Shown here: positions 7,803-16,777 of the stretch, one piece after another
How the letters are laid out: the number at the start of each line of letters is the position of its first letter
Position numbering within the stretch: position 1 is the stretch's first letter
Origin: Planctomycetaceae bacterium
GTDB taxonomy: Bacteria; Planctomycetota; Planctomycetia; Planctomycetales; Planctomycetaceae
Direction of reading: 5' to 3'
Length of the DNA: 52,486 nt
Assembly: GCA_947476295.1 (NCBI GenBank)
Contig: CANJQC010000022.1
Location: forward strand, 1-52,486
Program-made: the position numbers and the translations under genes
Notes under the pieces: model-generated
Told to the model about the DNA's origin: nothing
Seen by the model: only the letters and a program-made list of their open reading frames with translations
The model's database searches: none

Positions 7803-8990
7803 TCACTTTCGGACTGCCGCGCGGAGATCGGGTTCCTCGGATTCACCTGTCAGCAGAGTCAGATAGTTCTTCCAGGCGTAAACCCGATCGCGCTGCCTGC
7901 CTGTGGTCTCGAACAGGATCTTTGCTTTTCTCAACGATTCAATGGCCTTTGTCGCTGTTGGCTTCGTGGTTTTCAGGATCTTCATGACCCGCCCCAGAGT
8001 GACAATCGGATGGCTCGGCAATTGATCCAGCAGGCGAATCGCAGAAATCGTTACGCCGGACTGATTCAGGAGCTGCTGCCGGTCTCGTGACAGCAACGAA
8101 TGCAACTTCTCCGCCGTGTTCACACCGTCATCTGCCGCCTCTCGAACGCATTCGAGGAAGAAAGCGGTCCAGCCCTCCCAATCACCATCGGTGCGGACGG
8201 CGGATAACCTTGTGTAGTACTCGTCGCGATGTCGCTTCAAGGCAAGGCTCAAATATAACAGAGGCGCGTCAAGCAGGCCCCAGTGCTCCACAAGCAGCGT
8301 CACGAGGAGCCTTCCAATACGACCATTTCCATCAAGAAACGGATGGATTGTTTCAAATTGCACGTGGGCTAGTCCTGCGCGCACAAGCGGAGGAAGAGGA
8401 TCTTCCATGTGCAGCCACCTGTCCAGAGCGGCGAGAGCACCTGGGACTTCATCGGCCGGTGGCGGTACATACCTGGCGTTGCCGGGGCGAGTGCCTCCAA
8501 TCCAGTTCTGTGAACTCCGAATTTCGCCCGGTCGCTTGTCCGCACCTCGTACGCCTTTCATCAGACGCTTGTGTGCTTCACACAAAAGCCGAGTGCTCAG
8601 CGGCAGTCCCCTGGGCCGTGCGATCTCGTGACGAGCGTAGCTGATCGCATCAATGAAGTTGCAGACCTCATGAACGTCGTCAGGGCGGTCTGTCTTCTGT
8701 GTCGCCTCGAACTCAAGCACATCCCGGATCGTTGCCTGAGTCCCTTCGATCTGTGATGAGATCACGGCCTCCTTACGAACGAATCCATAAATGAACCAGT
8801 CACTGCTGGGTACCATCTTGCCGGCGACAGCGAGTCGTCCCACTGCAATATTGGCCTTGGATAACAGAATCTGAAGTGTTTCGTGGAGTATCAGTGGGGG
8901 ATCGACCGGGGGCAGCGGCCTCGGAATGAACGCACGTACTTCCTCCCCGCTGACTCTTGCTGCGCGGTAATCTCCGGTGATTCTATTCAT
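7803..8990 (-). CDS. Fic/DOC family AMP-transferase with C-terminal winged helix
   Basis: A 395-residue Fic protein that would transfer AMP (or another nucleotide) to a hydroxyl of a target protein. The active-site loop HPFLDGNGRIGR is intact (His216, Asp220, Asn222, Arg224, Arg227). An N-terminal inhibitory helix carries the SxxxEG signature at Ser78-Glu82-Gly83, making it an autoinhibited class II Fic. Residues 1-75 are the Fic_N region, and about 305-380 resemble a winged helix (TLGRVMKILKTTKPTATKAI), so it may bind DNA and control itself. No antitoxin gene lies beside it. It is inserted between a truncated pirin and a 5'-truncated hydrolase gene, consistent with arrival by transfer. Confidence 0.92.
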   Translation of the reverse strand: MNRITGDYRAARVSGEEVRAFIPRPLPPVDPPLILHETLQILLSKANIAVGRLAVAGKMVPSSDWFIYGFVRKEAVISSQIEGTQATIRDVLEFEATQKTDRPDDVHEVCNFIDAISYARHEIARPRGLPLSTRLLCEAHKRLMKGVRGADKRPGEIRSSQNWIGGTRPGNARYVPPPADEVPGALAALDRWLHMEDPLPPLVRAGLAHVQFETIHPFLDGNGRIGRLLVTLLVEHWGLLDAPLLYLSLALKRHRDEYYTRLSAVRTDGDWEGWTAFFLECVREAADDGVNTAEKLHSLLSRDRQQLLNQSGVTISAIRLLDQLPSHPIVTLGRVMKILKTTKPTATKAIESLRKAKILFETTGRQRDRVYAWKNYLTLLTGESEEPDLRAAVRK

Positions 8991-10553: not shown

Positions 10554-11369
10554 CTAAGCCGGATTCCAGATCAGGATTTCTCCTTTGCCGGGGATTGATG
10601 AGTCGCCGCAGTGGCGGGACCATGAGCCGGCGGACGCATGATTGGGCAGGGAGATGCCGTGAGGGAGAAGTTCTTGGGCGTAAAGATCTATGAAGGACGG
10701 ATTGTAGTGGCCGGATGATGCGAAGGTGGGCATCAACGGCAATGGCTGGAGTGACAGGATTGTGCCGCGAACCATCCAGGCTCCGGTGCGAAGTTCAGCT
10801 CCGCTCATCAGGACAATTGTGCCGCCCTTCATCTGAAGACCGCAGAAATCGCGAACCTTGCCGCCGACAACAATTGTCCCGCGACGCATCCTCATGCCGA
10901 CTTCCAGACCGGCAGTGCCCCCGACAATGATGGTTCCGTTTTTCATCCCGCGCAAGCTGCCCCGATAGGCCGCTCCAATCTGCCCGCCGGCATTCCCGTG
11001 GACATGGATAAAGCCGTTGCTCATTTCCGCGCCGATCCAGTCACCGGCGTCTCCCGTGACTTCGATTCGTCCACCGCGCATGTCTGCGCCTAGGTGCATG
11101 CCGACGCTGCCGTAAACCTTGAGCTGCCCGCGACTCATGCTCTTGCCGAGCAGTTTGACCCGATGCAGATCGCCATGCATTTCGATGAGGTCACTGAATT
11201 CACCAGTGACCTCAAAGAAATCGTCCAGACGGCAATGACGTTTGCCGTGATAGACAAGACTGCTGCGGATTTGTTCGTTTGACATGGTCACGAACGCATC
11301 CGGCGTCACCGTCTCCGCTTCCAGCGGAACCTTCGGACGTTCTTTGAGTGTTAGTGTGATGGGACTCAT
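10554..11369 (-). CDS. fwdC: Formylmethanofuran dehydrogenase subunit C
   Basis: Structural subunit (271 aa) of the formylmethanofuran dehydrogenase/formyltransferase-hydrolase complex, FwdC/FhcC family. The middle (about 80-215) is a right-handed parallel beta-helix made of short repeats such as GGRIEVTGDAGDWIGAEM, NGTIIVGGTAGLEVGMRM and RGTIVVGGKVRDFCGL, the typical glutamate-synthase-alpha-like domain. In archaeal Fwd and bacterial Fhc this subunit binds subunit A and the methanofuran tail. It is last in the fwdD-B-A-C run, 48 bp after fwdA. Could equally be named fhcC; I use fwd because the neighbouring B and D subunits look metal-dependent. Confidence 0.92.
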   Translation of the reverse strand: MSPITLTLKERPKVPLEAETVTPDAFVTMSNEQIRSSLVYHGKRHCRLDDFFEVTGEFSDLIEMHGDLHRVKLLGKSMSRGQLKVYGSVGMHLGADMRGGRIEVTGDAGDWIGAEMSNGFIHVHGNAGGQIGAAYRGSLRGMKNGTIIVGGTAGLEVGMRMRRGTIVVGGKVRDFCGLQMKGGTIVLMSGAELRTGAWMVRGTILSLQPLPLMPTFASSGHYNPSFIDLYAQELLPHGISLPNHASAGSWSRHCGDSSIPGKGEILIWNPA

Positions 11370-11417: not shown

Positions 11418-13115
11418 TTAGAATTCAACCCCCTCATCTGCCCTGTCGGGCTCTTTCTCCGCCGTTCTCGGGGGAGACGGGGCCTGACCGTTGATGCACT
11501 CACGGATATCGGCGTGTTCAAGTCGTTCCATTTCTACGGGATAGTTTTCGAACGACATTGTATAAACGTCTTCGAACTTTGGCTTCAGGAAGCTTTCAAT
11601 CTCCGGATCAAACGACGGTTTGACAATGAATTCGCGACCTTCCGGCGTCGCGCGAATATCGCCGTCTTCAATGACAACTTCACCACCCTTGAGTACATAA
11701 CGCGGGTGGCTGAACATCTTCGCGATGTCCTTTTCTTCTTCATAAATCACGACATCCGCGTCCGCTCCGATGCCCAGACTGCCTTTCTGAGTCAATCCAA
11801 GGGCGCGTGCAGGACCGGCGGAAGTGATCGTGGCGATTTCATAAAGCGTGTATTCACGATCGATGTCGGGAAGCGTAATGCGTTCACGGGCAATCGGGCT
11901 TAGCTTCGTCATGCAGTCCTTGCGGAAGTCGTAGCTCATCAGTAGCTGGATGATTTCCGGATATCGCCAGAAGCAGGCACCGTTGGGATGATCGGTGGAA
12001 AGAAAAATTCGCCACGGATCATTGATGAGCAGCAGCAGCTCCAGACCGACCGCCCATTGGATCGAATTTACAAGGTTGCTGGGACGATACGTATACGGCA
12101 CGATGCCGCAGCCAGTTTCATTTTCCACGTCCAGATTGCCCCACTTGCGGCCCGTGAGTTTGTAAAGCAGATGCTGCCACGGACCATCGGCGGTGATCGT
12201 GACCGTATCGCCGAACAGCACGGCACCCGCGTCGGTGGTCATGTTCGTGTGGGTGTTAAAGTACTCCGCGACTTCGGCCGATGCGGATCGCATCGTGTCC
12301 CAATCATCTCCACCGTACGCATGATACTGCAGGTGTGCAATGTGGGCTCGACGACCTTCCAGCAGCTTCATCGTTTCGAGCGTCGTCCAGACATTACCCG
12401 GCGCGCCAAGATTGTTGCAGTGCAGATGCATCGGATGCGGCAGGCCGAGTTCATCAATGATCTGCGCGAGTCTGCCGATAATCGTGCCAGGCGTGATGCT
12501 GTTGTAGCCTTCAATCGGGTCCGTGAGTTGTTTGGCGTCTTTGCCCCATTTCCACGCCGCGACACCGCCCGGATTGACAGCTTTGACGCCGTAGGCCTTG
12601 GCAGCCCAAACATGCCATGCGATGACGTCTTTAGCCCGTTCAAATTCTCCGGCTTCCAGCAAGTCGAGAAAAATCTCGTTGTTCGCCATGAGCACGCAAC
12701 TGGTCTTGTCGAGAATCGGTATGTCGCGCATTTCTTCGTGCGTGTGTCGCGCGGAGAGCACGGGAACGGCTGCTTCATTGACGGTTGTCCAGCCCATGCC
12801 AGCGTAAAGATAGCCGGTGGCAAACGTCGTCGGTGCCATTCCGCCGAGTCCCGAGCGACGTGACTGCGTTCGGATGAACGCTGTAGTTCGTCGATGATCT
12901 TCAGGCGTCATGGCCCGAGCGAAGTTGATCGAGCCGCCCGCGACGTGCGTGTGGACGTCAACGCCACCGGGGAAAATAATCATCCCGGCGGCATCGATCG
13001 TACGACCGCCGATGACAGACGAAACAAACTTGCCGCCATCAATACACAAGTCCCGGACCTGGCCGTTAATGCCGTTAGCGGGGTCAAAAATCTTTCCGCC
13101 CGTGATCCGAATCAT
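11418..13115 (-). CDS. fwdA: Formylmethanofuran dehydrogenase subunit A (dinuclear zinc amidohydrolase)
   Basis: Amidohydrolase-superfamily subunit (565 aa) that joins formate and (tetrahydro)methanofuran to formylmethanofuran, or hydrolyses it. Metal-binding HTH is His55 and His57 in VDVHTHVAGG. Lys178 in AYGVKAVNPGG aligns in position with the carboxylated Lys178 of the Methanothermobacter wolfeii enzyme. Further His are in MHLHCNNLG and HIAHLQYHAYGG, and the Asp is in FLSTDHPNG. The C-terminus carries the family's typical extension. The start has AAGG 6 nt upstream. The active site appears complete. An inverted repeat separates it from fwdB, but the order and strand suggest one transcript. 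Confidence 0.95.
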   Translation of the reverse strand: MIRITGGKIFDPANGINGQVRDLCIDGGKFVSSVIGGRTIDAAGMIIFPGGVDVHTHVAGGSINFARAMTPEDHRRTTAFIRTQSRRSGLGGMAPTTFATGYLYAGMGWTTVNEAAVPVLSARHTHEEMRDIPILDKTSCVLMANNEIFLDLLEAGEFERAKDVIAWHVWAAKAYGVKAVNPGGVAAWKWGKDAKQLTDPIEGYNSITPGTIIGRLAQIIDELGLPHPMHLHCNNLGAPGNVWTTLETMKLLEGRRAHIAHLQYHAYGGDDWDTMRSASAEVAEYFNTHTNMTTDAGAVLFGDTVTITADGPWQHLLYKLTGRKWGNLDVENETGCGIVPYTYRPSNLVNSIQWAVGLELLLLINDPWRIFLSTDHPNGACFWRYPEIIQLLMSYDFRKDCMTKLSPIARERITLPDIDREYTLYEIATITSAGPARALGLTQKGSLGIGADADVVIYEEEKDIAKMFSHPRYVLKGGEVVIEDGDIRATPEGREFIVKPSFDPEIESFLKPKFEDVYTMSFENYPVEMERLEHADIRECINGQAPSPPRTAEKEPDRADEGVEF

Positions 13116-13177: not shown

Positions 13178-13299
13178 TCTTAATCTTAATCCTACTCTTA
13201 AAATTAATCCCACGTTGCGACTTGAACTGAACTGGCGACCCGAGACCATGTCGGCCATGGAGCAGCGAATCGATTAAGATTAAGAGTAGGATTAAGAAT
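13178..13299. repeat. Inverted-repeat element, family A, copy 1
   Basis: About 120 bp with arms rich in TTAATC units (CTTAATCCTACTCTTA at the left, TAAGAGTAGGATTAAG at the right). The arms can fold on each other around a 50-60 bp non-repetitive core with GAACTGAACTGGC. The same arms and spacing recur at 16581-16703. Lies between fwdA and fwdB. Confidence 0.8.
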
Positions 13300-13324: not shown

Positions 13325-14659
13325 TTAATGTTGCATGATAGTCATTGGGCCGTCGGCAGGCATCCAGTGCGGCTTGCGAGCGACGGCTTCGTTGATCCTT
13401 CTCACGACTTCTTCATCCGTAGGATATGGTGACTTCAACGCGGGCTTCAATGGTAGCGGGATTTCATCCATCCGATACGCAGTTCCAGGAGCGCTGATTC
13501 CGGCGACAGACGTCGTGATGTGGACTCGTGCCAGGCGGCTGGTGTGCGTGACTTTGGGATCAAGCACAATCGTGGGAATGCGCGCAAGATGATCGATCGC
13601 GGGCTGTGGCATTGTCGCGCCCGGGTCAGCCCCCAGAATTAGCGCCGCATCCGTGTCGCCGCGGACCAGGACATCGACGGTTGAAAATTCGCCAGGGTTG
13701 TACCTTGGGTAACCTCGATTGAATGTAATCCCGAATGGAAACCCGGTCTGCCAGCGCATGATGACGTCGGCACCAGTCACGTTTCCATGGCCACGCATCG
13801 GCATGGCCACAAACTTGGTGAACGCATTGAGTTCCGCAGCCAGCGTCAGCAACGCTGCCGAATTCATGTGTTTGCCGCGGGTCATTGACAGGCCCATGCC
13901 GAAGAACATGCAACCGAACCTTGCCTTCTTTGCACGATCGATGAAGTCCGTCATCTGTTCCAGCGTCAACCCTGTTTCTGCAACTATTGATGAGTTGACA
14001 TGCTGTCCTTTCAGGATCGCGCGCAGGATCGTCAGGACTTCGAAGTCCTTGCCAGGCCGAATCTGAAGAAAGATGTCAGCGGCTCCGCCACTTTTGGTTT
14101 CACGGATATCGACCAGAATCATCGTGCGGTCTTTGCGACCCCGCGGCAGGAATTTACTTTTCTGCATCAGCGTATACTTGGTGAAATGCCTTGGATGGCA
14201 TTCGGCAGGATTCCCGCCCCAGTACACAATGAAATCTGCTCGGTTCTTTACTTCGCCAAGAGTACACGTCACTTTACCACCCAACTGGGCGGCGATTTCT
14301 GTGGGACCGTGTCAAAGCGAGGTGTGACTGTCAAGCAGCCCTCCGAGTCGATCGGCCAGCGAGACTGCTTCTCGCTGAGCTTCACAGGTGGTATTGCTCA
14401 GTCCGTAAATCAGCGGCATGTGAGCGTCATGCAAAAAAGTGGCAGCGGCTTCAATCGCCTCGTCCACTGTGGCCTCGCGTCCGTCAATTAAAGCGTCCGG
14501 ATAATCGTGGTCTGCCGTATGATTCAGGAACCACGCCTTGCCGAGGACGCAGGCTTTTTTGGCTTCGTGAATGCGCGTCTCGTCGGAATGCAATTCGATG
14601 TCGTCGCAGACGCAGCCGCAGAACGTACATGTAGCGTTATGGATGACGTTGAGACTCAT
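13325..14659 (-). CDS. fwdB: Formylmethanofuran dehydrogenase subunit B, probable selenoprotein (UGA = Sec116)
   Basis: Catalytic W/Mo-bis-pterin subunit that interconverts CO2 and formate. Read as one frame it is 444 residues with a single internal TGA (14312-14314, codon 116); without readthrough it would give a useless 115-residue peptide. Before the UGA: Cys11, Cys14, Cys16/18 and Cys37 fit the N-terminal [4Fe-4S] site. After it, with no frame change: His117-Gly118-Pro119, then STCTLGEV-like TCTLGEVKNR, WGGNPAECHPRH and MPMRGHGNVTG (Arg289). In M. wolfeii FwdB the metal ligand is Cys118 with His119 and Arg288 nearby; in some methanogens this ligand is Sec. Sec-His-Gly-Pro is also the active site of E. 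coli formate dehydrogenase H. I infer selenocysteine rather than a nonsense mutation. Length suits archaeal FwdB. Confidence 0.85.
14264..14314 (-). promoter_or_regulatory. Candidate bacterial SECIS element in fwdB
   Basis: Read on the minus strand after the UGA: a 7-bp upper stem GCCGCCC/GGGUGGU (14293-14287 with 14282-14276, two G-U pairs) with apical loop AGUU (14286-14283). The loop begins 25 nt after the UGA and has G at its second position. A lower stem pairs ACACG, which includes the A of the UGA (14312-14308), with CGUGU (14268-14264). This matches the bacterial SECIS rules as I know them: loop 16-37 nt from UGA, G among the first two loop bases. Stability was judged by eye, not computed. 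Confidence 0.65.
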
Positions 14660-14810: not shown

Positions 14811-15068
14811 CTTTAGTCATTGCCGCACTTCGGCCTTGTGGCGGATTCGTCCGAACCGGACGAAGGAATAAGAAACGTTCAACCCAGCGCGCGACCGGGA
14901 TTGCTGCCTCGCACTCGACGCGGCATGAAGCGGCCATTATCGACTTCTTCCCATGCGGCGAATTCCTGCTGCGGCTGTTCGGTTGAAAAATGCAGTGATT
15001 CGTCTGAGACGAAATCTGCCGAAGCATTCTTGTCGTCAATCATTTTTTCGATCCTTTTGTATCTGTTT

Positions 15069-15122: not shown

Positions 15123-15464
15123 TCACTTCGGAACGGGTTCTACATCGACGTCCCAGCCTTTGGATGTTGGCATTCCAGTTCCGTCGGTGCTGCCGCCCAT
15201 GAGTTTACAGGTTGGTGGGCCGTACGGTACAAACAAAAGTCCAGTTGGACATTTCCCAGGTTCGCATTGAAATATGGCCTCGCCGAATTCCGTCCGGACG
15301 ACGACCGAATCGCCGGATTCCAGTCCCATTTCCTTCATATCGGTCGGGGACATCGTCAAAGTGTTCACAACCGCCTGATATTCAGCGGTATCCTTGCCCG
15401 AATTGATGAGCGCACCTTGTTTGGCTGTGCGGGAAGGATTTAACATAAAACGCCGGGAAACCAT
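15123..15464 (-). CDS. fwdD: Formylmethanofuran dehydrogenase subunit D (molybdopterin dinucleotide-binding)
   Basis: A 113-residue protein equal to the free molydopterin-dinucleotide-binding domain (FwdD/FmdD). In archaeal Fwd it joins FwdB to enclose the tungsto/molybdo-bis-pterin. Seen: beta-rich MGLESGDSVVVRTEFGEAI of the double-psi barrel, then PTGLLFVPYGPPTC and STDGTGMPTSKGWDVDV, the cofactor-contacting signature. The start is supported by GAGG 7 nt upstream. Methylotroph Fhc complexes, which act without the metal cofactor, are described as fhcA-B-C-D where D is the formyltransferase, so a true FwdD here is evidence for a metal-dependent enzyme. It is the first gene of the fwdD-B-A-C run. 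Confidence 0.88.
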   Translation of the reverse strand: MVSRRFMLNPSRTAKQGALINSGKDTAEYQAVVNTLTMSPTDMKEMGLESGDSVVVRTEFGEAIFQCEPGKCPTGLLFVPYGPPTCKLMGGSTDGTGMPTSKGWDVDVEPVPK

Positions 15465-16580: not shown

Positions 16581-16703
16581 TAATCTTAATCCTACTCTTA
16601 ATCTTAATCGATTCCTGCAGATTGAACTGGCCAACGCTGCACACATCGACAGTCCGGCGAGCGGCAAATCGATTAAGATTATGATGAAGAGTAAGATTAA
16701 GAG
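16581..16703. repeat. Inverted-repeat element, family A, copy 2
   Basis: Left arm with TTAATCCTACTCTTAATC (16585-16608) and right arm from AATCGATTAAGATT (16667) to 16703 are inverted. The core carries TTGAACTGGCC, like copy 1 at 13178-13299. Same size and design. Confidence 0.8.
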
Positions 16704-16777
16704 TTGATGGCGCAACGAACGAAGAACGTCCATTGAAGCAGTTCGTAACCTGCGACTGTGACTAATTGAGCCGTCTT

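Follow-up and report, generated by a model that had tools for sequence, protein, structure and literature searches.

The fwd operon and its surroundings

The window (the whole stretch of DNA that was analysed, 52,486 nucleotides) carries an operon whose genes all lie on the minus strand, in the order fwdD, a small gene that we call S, fwdB, fwdA and fwdC. The gene fwdB (formylmethanofuran dehydrogenase subunit B; 13325..14659, minus strand) runs from an ATG at 14659 to a TAA ending at 13325; its sole in-frame stop is the TGA of codon 116 (14312..14314, minus strand), and its predicted product has 444 residues with selenocysteine (Sec) at residue 116. The earlier note on this DNA had reported a FwdB frame at 13325-14659 broken only by this TGA. 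The coordinates and the length (444 residues and a stop) are right; the strand had not been given, the positions being those of the plus strand, where many stops are found over the same interval, and the gene was found on the minus strand. The FwdB identity was borne out by a match to TIGR03129 with 494 bits over residues 8-426 (cut-off 327.8).

Concerning the other subunits, fwdD (molybdopterin-dinucleotide-binding subunit; 15123..15464, minus strand, 113 residues) matches NF042908 with an E value of 8e-21 and 74.5 bits, which is significant yet below the cut-off of 175 for that model. The product of fwdA (amidohydrolase subunit; 11418..13115, minus strand, 565 residues) matches TIGR03121 with 697 bits as well as the solved FwdA chains, and that of fwdC (GXGXG subunit; 10554..11369, minus strand, 271 residues) matches TIGR03122 with 258.5 bits. 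The A, C and D subunits that define a Fwd/Fmd complex are encoded alongside B, with the reservation just given for fwdD. The defining trait of an Fhc complex, a B subunit without Mo/W cofactor, is not met, as Sec is predicted at the ligand position and fwdD is present; the cofactor itself is only predicted. No polyferredoxin was found among the window ORFs scanned, which were a subset of the ORFs. The direction of the reaction in vivo cannot be read from the sequence. The source genome (5.99 Mb in 252 contigs, 98.97% complete) also contains ftr (formyltransferase) and fae genes, two of each, and, on contig 135, a FwdB paralogue of the Cys type (L071:6720-8066, minus strand); six ORFs neighbouring the paralogue were scanned and none is a fwd gene.

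Some further elements are found in or near the operon. A palindromic element of about 120 bp, resembling a small mobile or REP-like element, is present in two copies (window 13182-13299 and 16582-16704) with AATCTTAATCCTACTCTTAA common to their ends; one of the two lies between fwdA and fwdB. A protein of the Fic/DOC family is encoded close to the operon at 7803-8990 (minus strand). In some relatives AbiEii/AAA-like genes are inserted within the fwd operon (L127:2267-3376 and L140:4912-5538), and none of the genes inserted between operon members in L115, L126, L127 and L140 pointed to a partner.

Gene S and its distribution

Directly upstream of fwdB lies a second gene with an in-frame UGA, which the earlier note had missed. 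Gene S (14813..15043, minus strand) extends from an ATG at 15043, with AAGGA upstream of the start, to a TAA at 14813, and has its UGA at codon 55 (14879..14881, minus strand). The predicted protein of 76 residues, MIDDKN...AWEEVDNGRFMPRRVRGSNPGRALG-U-TFLIPSSGSDESATRPKCGND, contains Sec at residue 55 within the core motif GR[FY]MPRR[VI]RGSxxGRALG-U-[TSA]F; it has no conserved second Cys and no CxxU or UxxC motif. The gap between fwdD and fwdB measures 316-487 bases in the first nine Sec loci and 17-85 bases in the four Cys loci where fwdD could be detected. When the three forward frames of this gap were read, one frame was conserved across an in-frame TGA in all nine loci.

Relatives of S were sought with the pattern GR[YF][ML]PRR[VI]RG in one genome per species (84,980 species). 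This gave 94 relatives, with TGA at the site in 80 of the 80 that were examined; the pattern does not include the UGA site, so TGA was not selected for by the search. For the sequence comparisons 91 loci were examined, 90 of which contain S (L062 ends before it), and after three duplicates were dropped 87 distinct sequences remained, all with TGA at the site.

Concerning the phylum, S is found in all 10 genomes with a UGA-containing fwdB among the 392 genomes drawn. Elsewhere in this draw there is only one weak partial match, in G281 (contig 338, 3615-3731, L165), which reaches 24 bits over model positions 1-36 and contains no TGA; G281 has no fwdB match, belongs to the same genus as three S carriers and is 83% complete, and the match is perhaps a fragment. 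A draw of 397 genomes of the class gave 83 strong matches (E up to 2.5e-15), every one of which contains one TGA or more, with a further stop in some; ten of the 83 were read, and each has its TGA at the Sec site. No Cys form of S was found in the 392 phylum and 397 class genomes, which overlap; such a form is a usual criterion for a selenoprotein but is not required. Ten weak matches of the class draw without TGA (18.9-23.1 bits) were rejected as S, since the S core is absent in all of them: a single repeat-like stretch accounts for three, and the others appear to be chance matches. Within the genus of the window the distribution in the class draw is patchy, with S in three of 12 members (source genome included) and absent in nine. 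On L133, a contig named Acidobacteria, the operon with two selenoprotein genes is nested among planctomycete sequences, and the genome has selA; this reflects either gene transfer or mis-binning.

In the 80 relatives examined, some of them truncated by contig ends, the order of the operon genes is DSBAC in 45, DSB in 15, DSBA in 14, DS in three, SBAC in two and SB in one. Hence fwdD is upstream of S in 77 and fwdB is downstream of S in 77. L095 contains S and fwdB, but fwdD could not be detected within about 4 kb. The last stop codon of S and the start codon of fwdB overlap as ATGA in five loci (L079, L082, L085, L094 and L096), an arrangement that is a usual sign of coupled translation. The position before fwdB in 77 of 80 loci and the five overlaps would suit a gene that is mainly a selenium-sensing leader, in which Sec insertion lets ribosomes reach fwdB and termination lowers fwdB expression. 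This reading is held to be improbable. In L143 and L150, S lies behind ftr and fwdD while the UGA-containing fwdB is elsewhere in the genome, yet the UGA and the hairpin of S are kept; moreover, the peptide core of S is invariant at the protein level, which a leader does not need. Because S stands apart from fwdB in these two genomes, it tracks the complex and not merely the start of fwdB, and we consider it likely that S is dedicated to the Sec-type complex.

Evidence for translation of S through its UGA

The internal stop of S is TGA in 87 of 87 sequences, whereas the terminal stops are mixed (TAA 35, TGA 34, TAG 17, and one off the contig end), and so the site is invariant and does not behave as an ordinary stop. 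The Gly preceding the UGA uses all four of its codons. The Phe at +2 is present in all 87 sequences and is encoded by both TTC (49) and TTT (38). The constraint on the protein, expressed as pN/pS, is 0.16 for codons -18 to -1, 0.48 for +1 to +5 and 0.85 for +6 to +13. Past the UGA, protein constraint thus looks visible in only about five codons, and the hairpin overlaps the downstream codons and could mimic protein conservation.

The SECIS-like hairpin of S (14846..14864, minus strand) has 8 bp and a GUU triloop (GGUUC with the closing pair), that is, a loop of the GGUY type at the distance of bacterial SECIS elements; in both respects it is like known elements such as that of E. coli fdhF. 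In 83 of the 87 sequences the hairpin finder placed a stem of 5-9 bp whose start lies 14-19 bases beyond the first UGA base, mostly with GUU or GUC in the loop. Four sequences were exceptions. L060 has a longer stem at that position; for the remaining three the finder chose other places, and re-reading by eye gave the usual hairpin in L093 and L141 and a weak one at best in L131. Pairs were counted in 55 sequences with the loop in one register, using a pattern that also demanded GT/GG at the loop and excluding sequences shifted by one codon. In this set 95.6% of the cells pair, and both sides of the pair have changed in 40 cells. Covariation scored 0.336, compared with a mean of 0.168 after shuffling; none of 500 shuffles was as high, and slid controls gave 0.040-0.113. 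The number of pairs with any two-sided change, five, was reached by 106 of the 500 shuffles and is not above chance. Folds of single sequences were clearly above shuffles in only one of four pieces. Within this scope (55 sequences, one register) S meets the criterion of a covarying SECIS element.

These data also bear on the possibility that S ends normally at its UGA (...GRALG-stop) and that the hairpin is regulatory or terminator-like and no SECIS. Such an ending would agree with constraint that is strongest before the UGA and weak beyond +5. It would not account for a stop that is always TGA inside and mixed at the end, for the invariant Phe written with both codons, for a loop and spacing that resemble those of the hairpin behind the fwdB UGA, for the company that S keeps with UGA-containing fwdB in the 392-genome draw, or for the five ATGA overlaps, which are made by the second stop. 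A normal end at the UGA is thus very improbable, and S is regarded with high confidence as a true selenoprotein, although this is judged from nucleotide sequences and there is no protein evidence for S or for its Sec.

The UGA codon of fwdB

Residue 116 of FwdB aligns with the Cys of four solved chains (8rja, 5t5i, 9sw6 and 7bkb), so that UGA-His-Gly-Pro stands against Cys-His-Gly-Pro; this agrees with the claim of the earlier note that the UGA occupies the metal-ligand codon. In a further solved chain, 9sfi_Q, the opposite residue is an unassigned X, which is perhaps Sec. The N-terminus contains CTFCGCVC and one later Cys, also aligned with the solved chains, which we take to be the ligands of a [4Fe-4S] cluster; the cluster is predicted only. 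That Sec116 is the Mo/W ligand is inferred.

The site was examined at 90 loci, window included, and is TGA in all 85 that reach it; these include three second fetches of one same contig, which leaves 82 distinct proteins. Of the remaining five loci, L076, L078 and L103 end before the site, and in L143 and L150 the fwdB gene is located elsewhere in the genome and likewise contains the TGA. Among the 392 phylum genomes, 10 (window included) have a fwdB orthologue with 74-100% identity and exactly one TGA each, and the next seven full-length relatives of the same draw (55-60% identity) have no TGA and contain Cys at the site. More distant FhcB-like paralogues have Cys (five) or, by motif search, Gly, Ile or an unassigned residue. 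In a tree of 109 rows, a single branch of support 100 groups 84 UGA rows together, and with a midpoint root the Cys rows L064-L070 are their sister group. This tree is a quick one with several long branches; at least two of the 84 UGA rows repeat another, and the site labels of the outer paralogues come from the motif search, with six unassigned.

The earlier note had proposed Sec at this codon, had called decay by chance unlikely, and had suggested a search of the same genome for selA, selB, selC and selD and an alignment of close relatives. Both suggestions were followed and the proposal gained support from each. In the source genome selA (contig 18, 459 bits), selB (contig 27, 347 bits), tRNA-Sec (contig 72, 70.5 bits) and selD (contig 92, 246 bits) are all present above cut-off. 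Further, selA is above cut-off in all 11 of the other UGA-fwdB genomes that were tested (nine others of the 392-genome draw and the carriers L133 and L115) versus two of seven Cys-FwdB genomes. The close relatives have UGA and the next orthologues Cys, as described above. The 392-genome search also gave many distant planctomycete oxidoreductase matches with long frames and one in-frame TGA in or near the match (e.g. G320 contig 114, G200 contig 60 and G182 contig 301), which are probably Sec formate dehydrogenases.

That fwdB is decaying and owes its UGA to a nonsense mutation or a sequencing error, its function being one that the Cys-type paralogue on contig 135 could cover, is rejected: chance and read error are excluded because TGA stands at every locus that reaches the site, in 82 distinct proteins, and the UGA rows fall on one side of a fully supported branch and the 444-codon frame is intact. 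A change of code, with UGA as a sense codon for another amino acid, found no support and is likewise rejected, as UGA is the terminal stop of the window fwdD, of 34 of the 87 S genes and of numerous fwdB genes, and the genome has the Sec machinery. Sec at codon 116 of FwdB is therefore held to be nearly certain, as a prediction from comparative evidence.

A SECIS-like hairpin is also present behind this UGA (14276..14293, minus strand), with 7 bp and an AGUU loop, 18 bases after the UGA codon; it meets the criterion for bacterial selenoproteins of a hairpin with GU in the loop right after the UGA. Of 518 cells in 74 sequences, 97.9% are paired. Among 79 Sec-type sequences all seven pairs form in 68 and six in 11, and 12 Cys-type relatives or paralogues form 2-6 of the seven; the Cys-type gene L065 reaches six, which counts against the hairpin as a signal. 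Codons +9 (CAG) and +10 (TTG) after the UGA are fixed in 79 of 79 sequences, and the Leu at +18 is written with many codons; Leu has six. Every change in the stem is one-sided (e.g. G-U/G-C), so there is no true covariation, and the score is no better than that of shuffles.

Relatives and structure of S

Three S members gave no match in Pfam or in NCBIfam release 20.0 (E up to 10), and a profile comparison with the PDB gave only one chance match (E 6). The AlphaFold model, for which 75 of the 76 residues were used, has a pLDDT of 61.7, a short beta hairpin at residues 31-41 and an unstructured, arginine-rich Sec loop; with this pLDDT and so small a fold, no structure supports a role. S is absent from the 119 prokaryotic selenoprotein families and subfamilies of Table 1 in the 2026 review PMC13188914, and the motif GRALGU[TSA]F has no entry in that table. 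A literature search found no publication on S; it did not cover the candidate table in supplementary S9 of PMC4807772, where an unnamed listing is possible. S is thus apparently an undescribed selenoprotein family.

Comparison with known systems

The Sec-type FwdB of the window is already a known kind, because a planctomycete Sec-FmdB was reported in 2016, which the earlier note had also missed. According to the part of that study available (PMC4807772, planctomycetes from Porphyra), fmdB of Rhodopirellula sp. P2 is a selenoprotein gene in an operon fmdD-fmdB-fmdA-fmdC, a Lake Washington fosmid contains a copy 71% identical to it, and the P2 genome has both Sec and Cys forms. As far as this source goes, the window is similar in its Sec form, its D-B-A-C operon, its Sec machinery and the Cys form in the same genome. 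It differs in that the same part of the report, supplementary table S9 aside, names no extra gene between fmdD and fmdB, where the window has S. The new part is gene S between fwdD and fwdB.

The Fhc complex of methylotrophic bacteria shares the homologous subunits A, B and C with the window; unlike Fhc, the window has a predicted Sec ligand and retains the N-terminal cysteines and fwdD. According to PMC10100899, the Mo/W cofactor is missing from FhcB. As for the known prokaryotic selenoprotein families of PMC13188914, S resembles them in that its in-frame UGA would be read as Sec.

A comparison can also be made with the archaea. Methanogens such as Methanopyrus kandleri reportedly have a Sec-type FwdB, which Vorholt is said to have described in 1997. 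The window is like this form in its predicted Sec at the Mo/W ligand position of FwdB, and unlike it in the bacterial operon, the bacterial-type hairpin directly after the UGA and the lack of a polyferredoxin in the ORFs scanned; the S gene of the window operon would be a further difference if methanogens lack it.

Proposed role of S and its meaning

On the sequence evidence the operon probably encodes a bacterial selenium-dependent formylmethanofuran dehydrogenase with two UGA-encoded Sec residues in two proteins. SelB would deliver Sec-tRNA at both UGA sites, and the complex would interconvert formyl-methanofuran (or methylofuran) and CO2; this activity and the bound W or Mo are inferred. 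S would be an accessory protein, small and largely without structure, that acts together with the Sec-type enzyme and may fold on binding. In the role that we prefer, that of a maturation or guard factor, its selenolate and arginine-rich loop would act at the Mo/W-pterin/Sec site, near the contact between FwdD and FwdB. Such a role fits the data because S lies beside fwdD and fwdB, co-occurs with the Sec form and has a basic Sec loop; nevertheless this exact role is an inference and only a tentative one. The same caution applies to the full proposal, which we put forward as a possibility short of being the probable one, that S is an obligate selenoprotein family without Cys form, a dedicated partner of the bacterial Sec-type enzyme whose selenolate acts on the Mo/W-pterin-Sec site.

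Short selenoproteins without a Cys homologue can escape annotation because each is cut at its UGA. The carriers of the S operon include Planctomycetes bacterium K23_9 (L120), presumably a cultured strain, which has a complete chromosome and in which the prediction would be testable in culture. Sec-type formylmethanofuran dehydrogenases perform a CO2-linked step at a highly reactive metal-selenium site, and an accessory selenoprotein that goes with the bacterial Sec version, without having been found beside the Cys version in any genome searched, would offer a direct handle on why selenium is needed and on how such a site is built or protected. If the selenolate of S does act there, it may serve in insertion, sulfuration or protection from oxygen, and one selenoprotein would then be needed to build or guard another.
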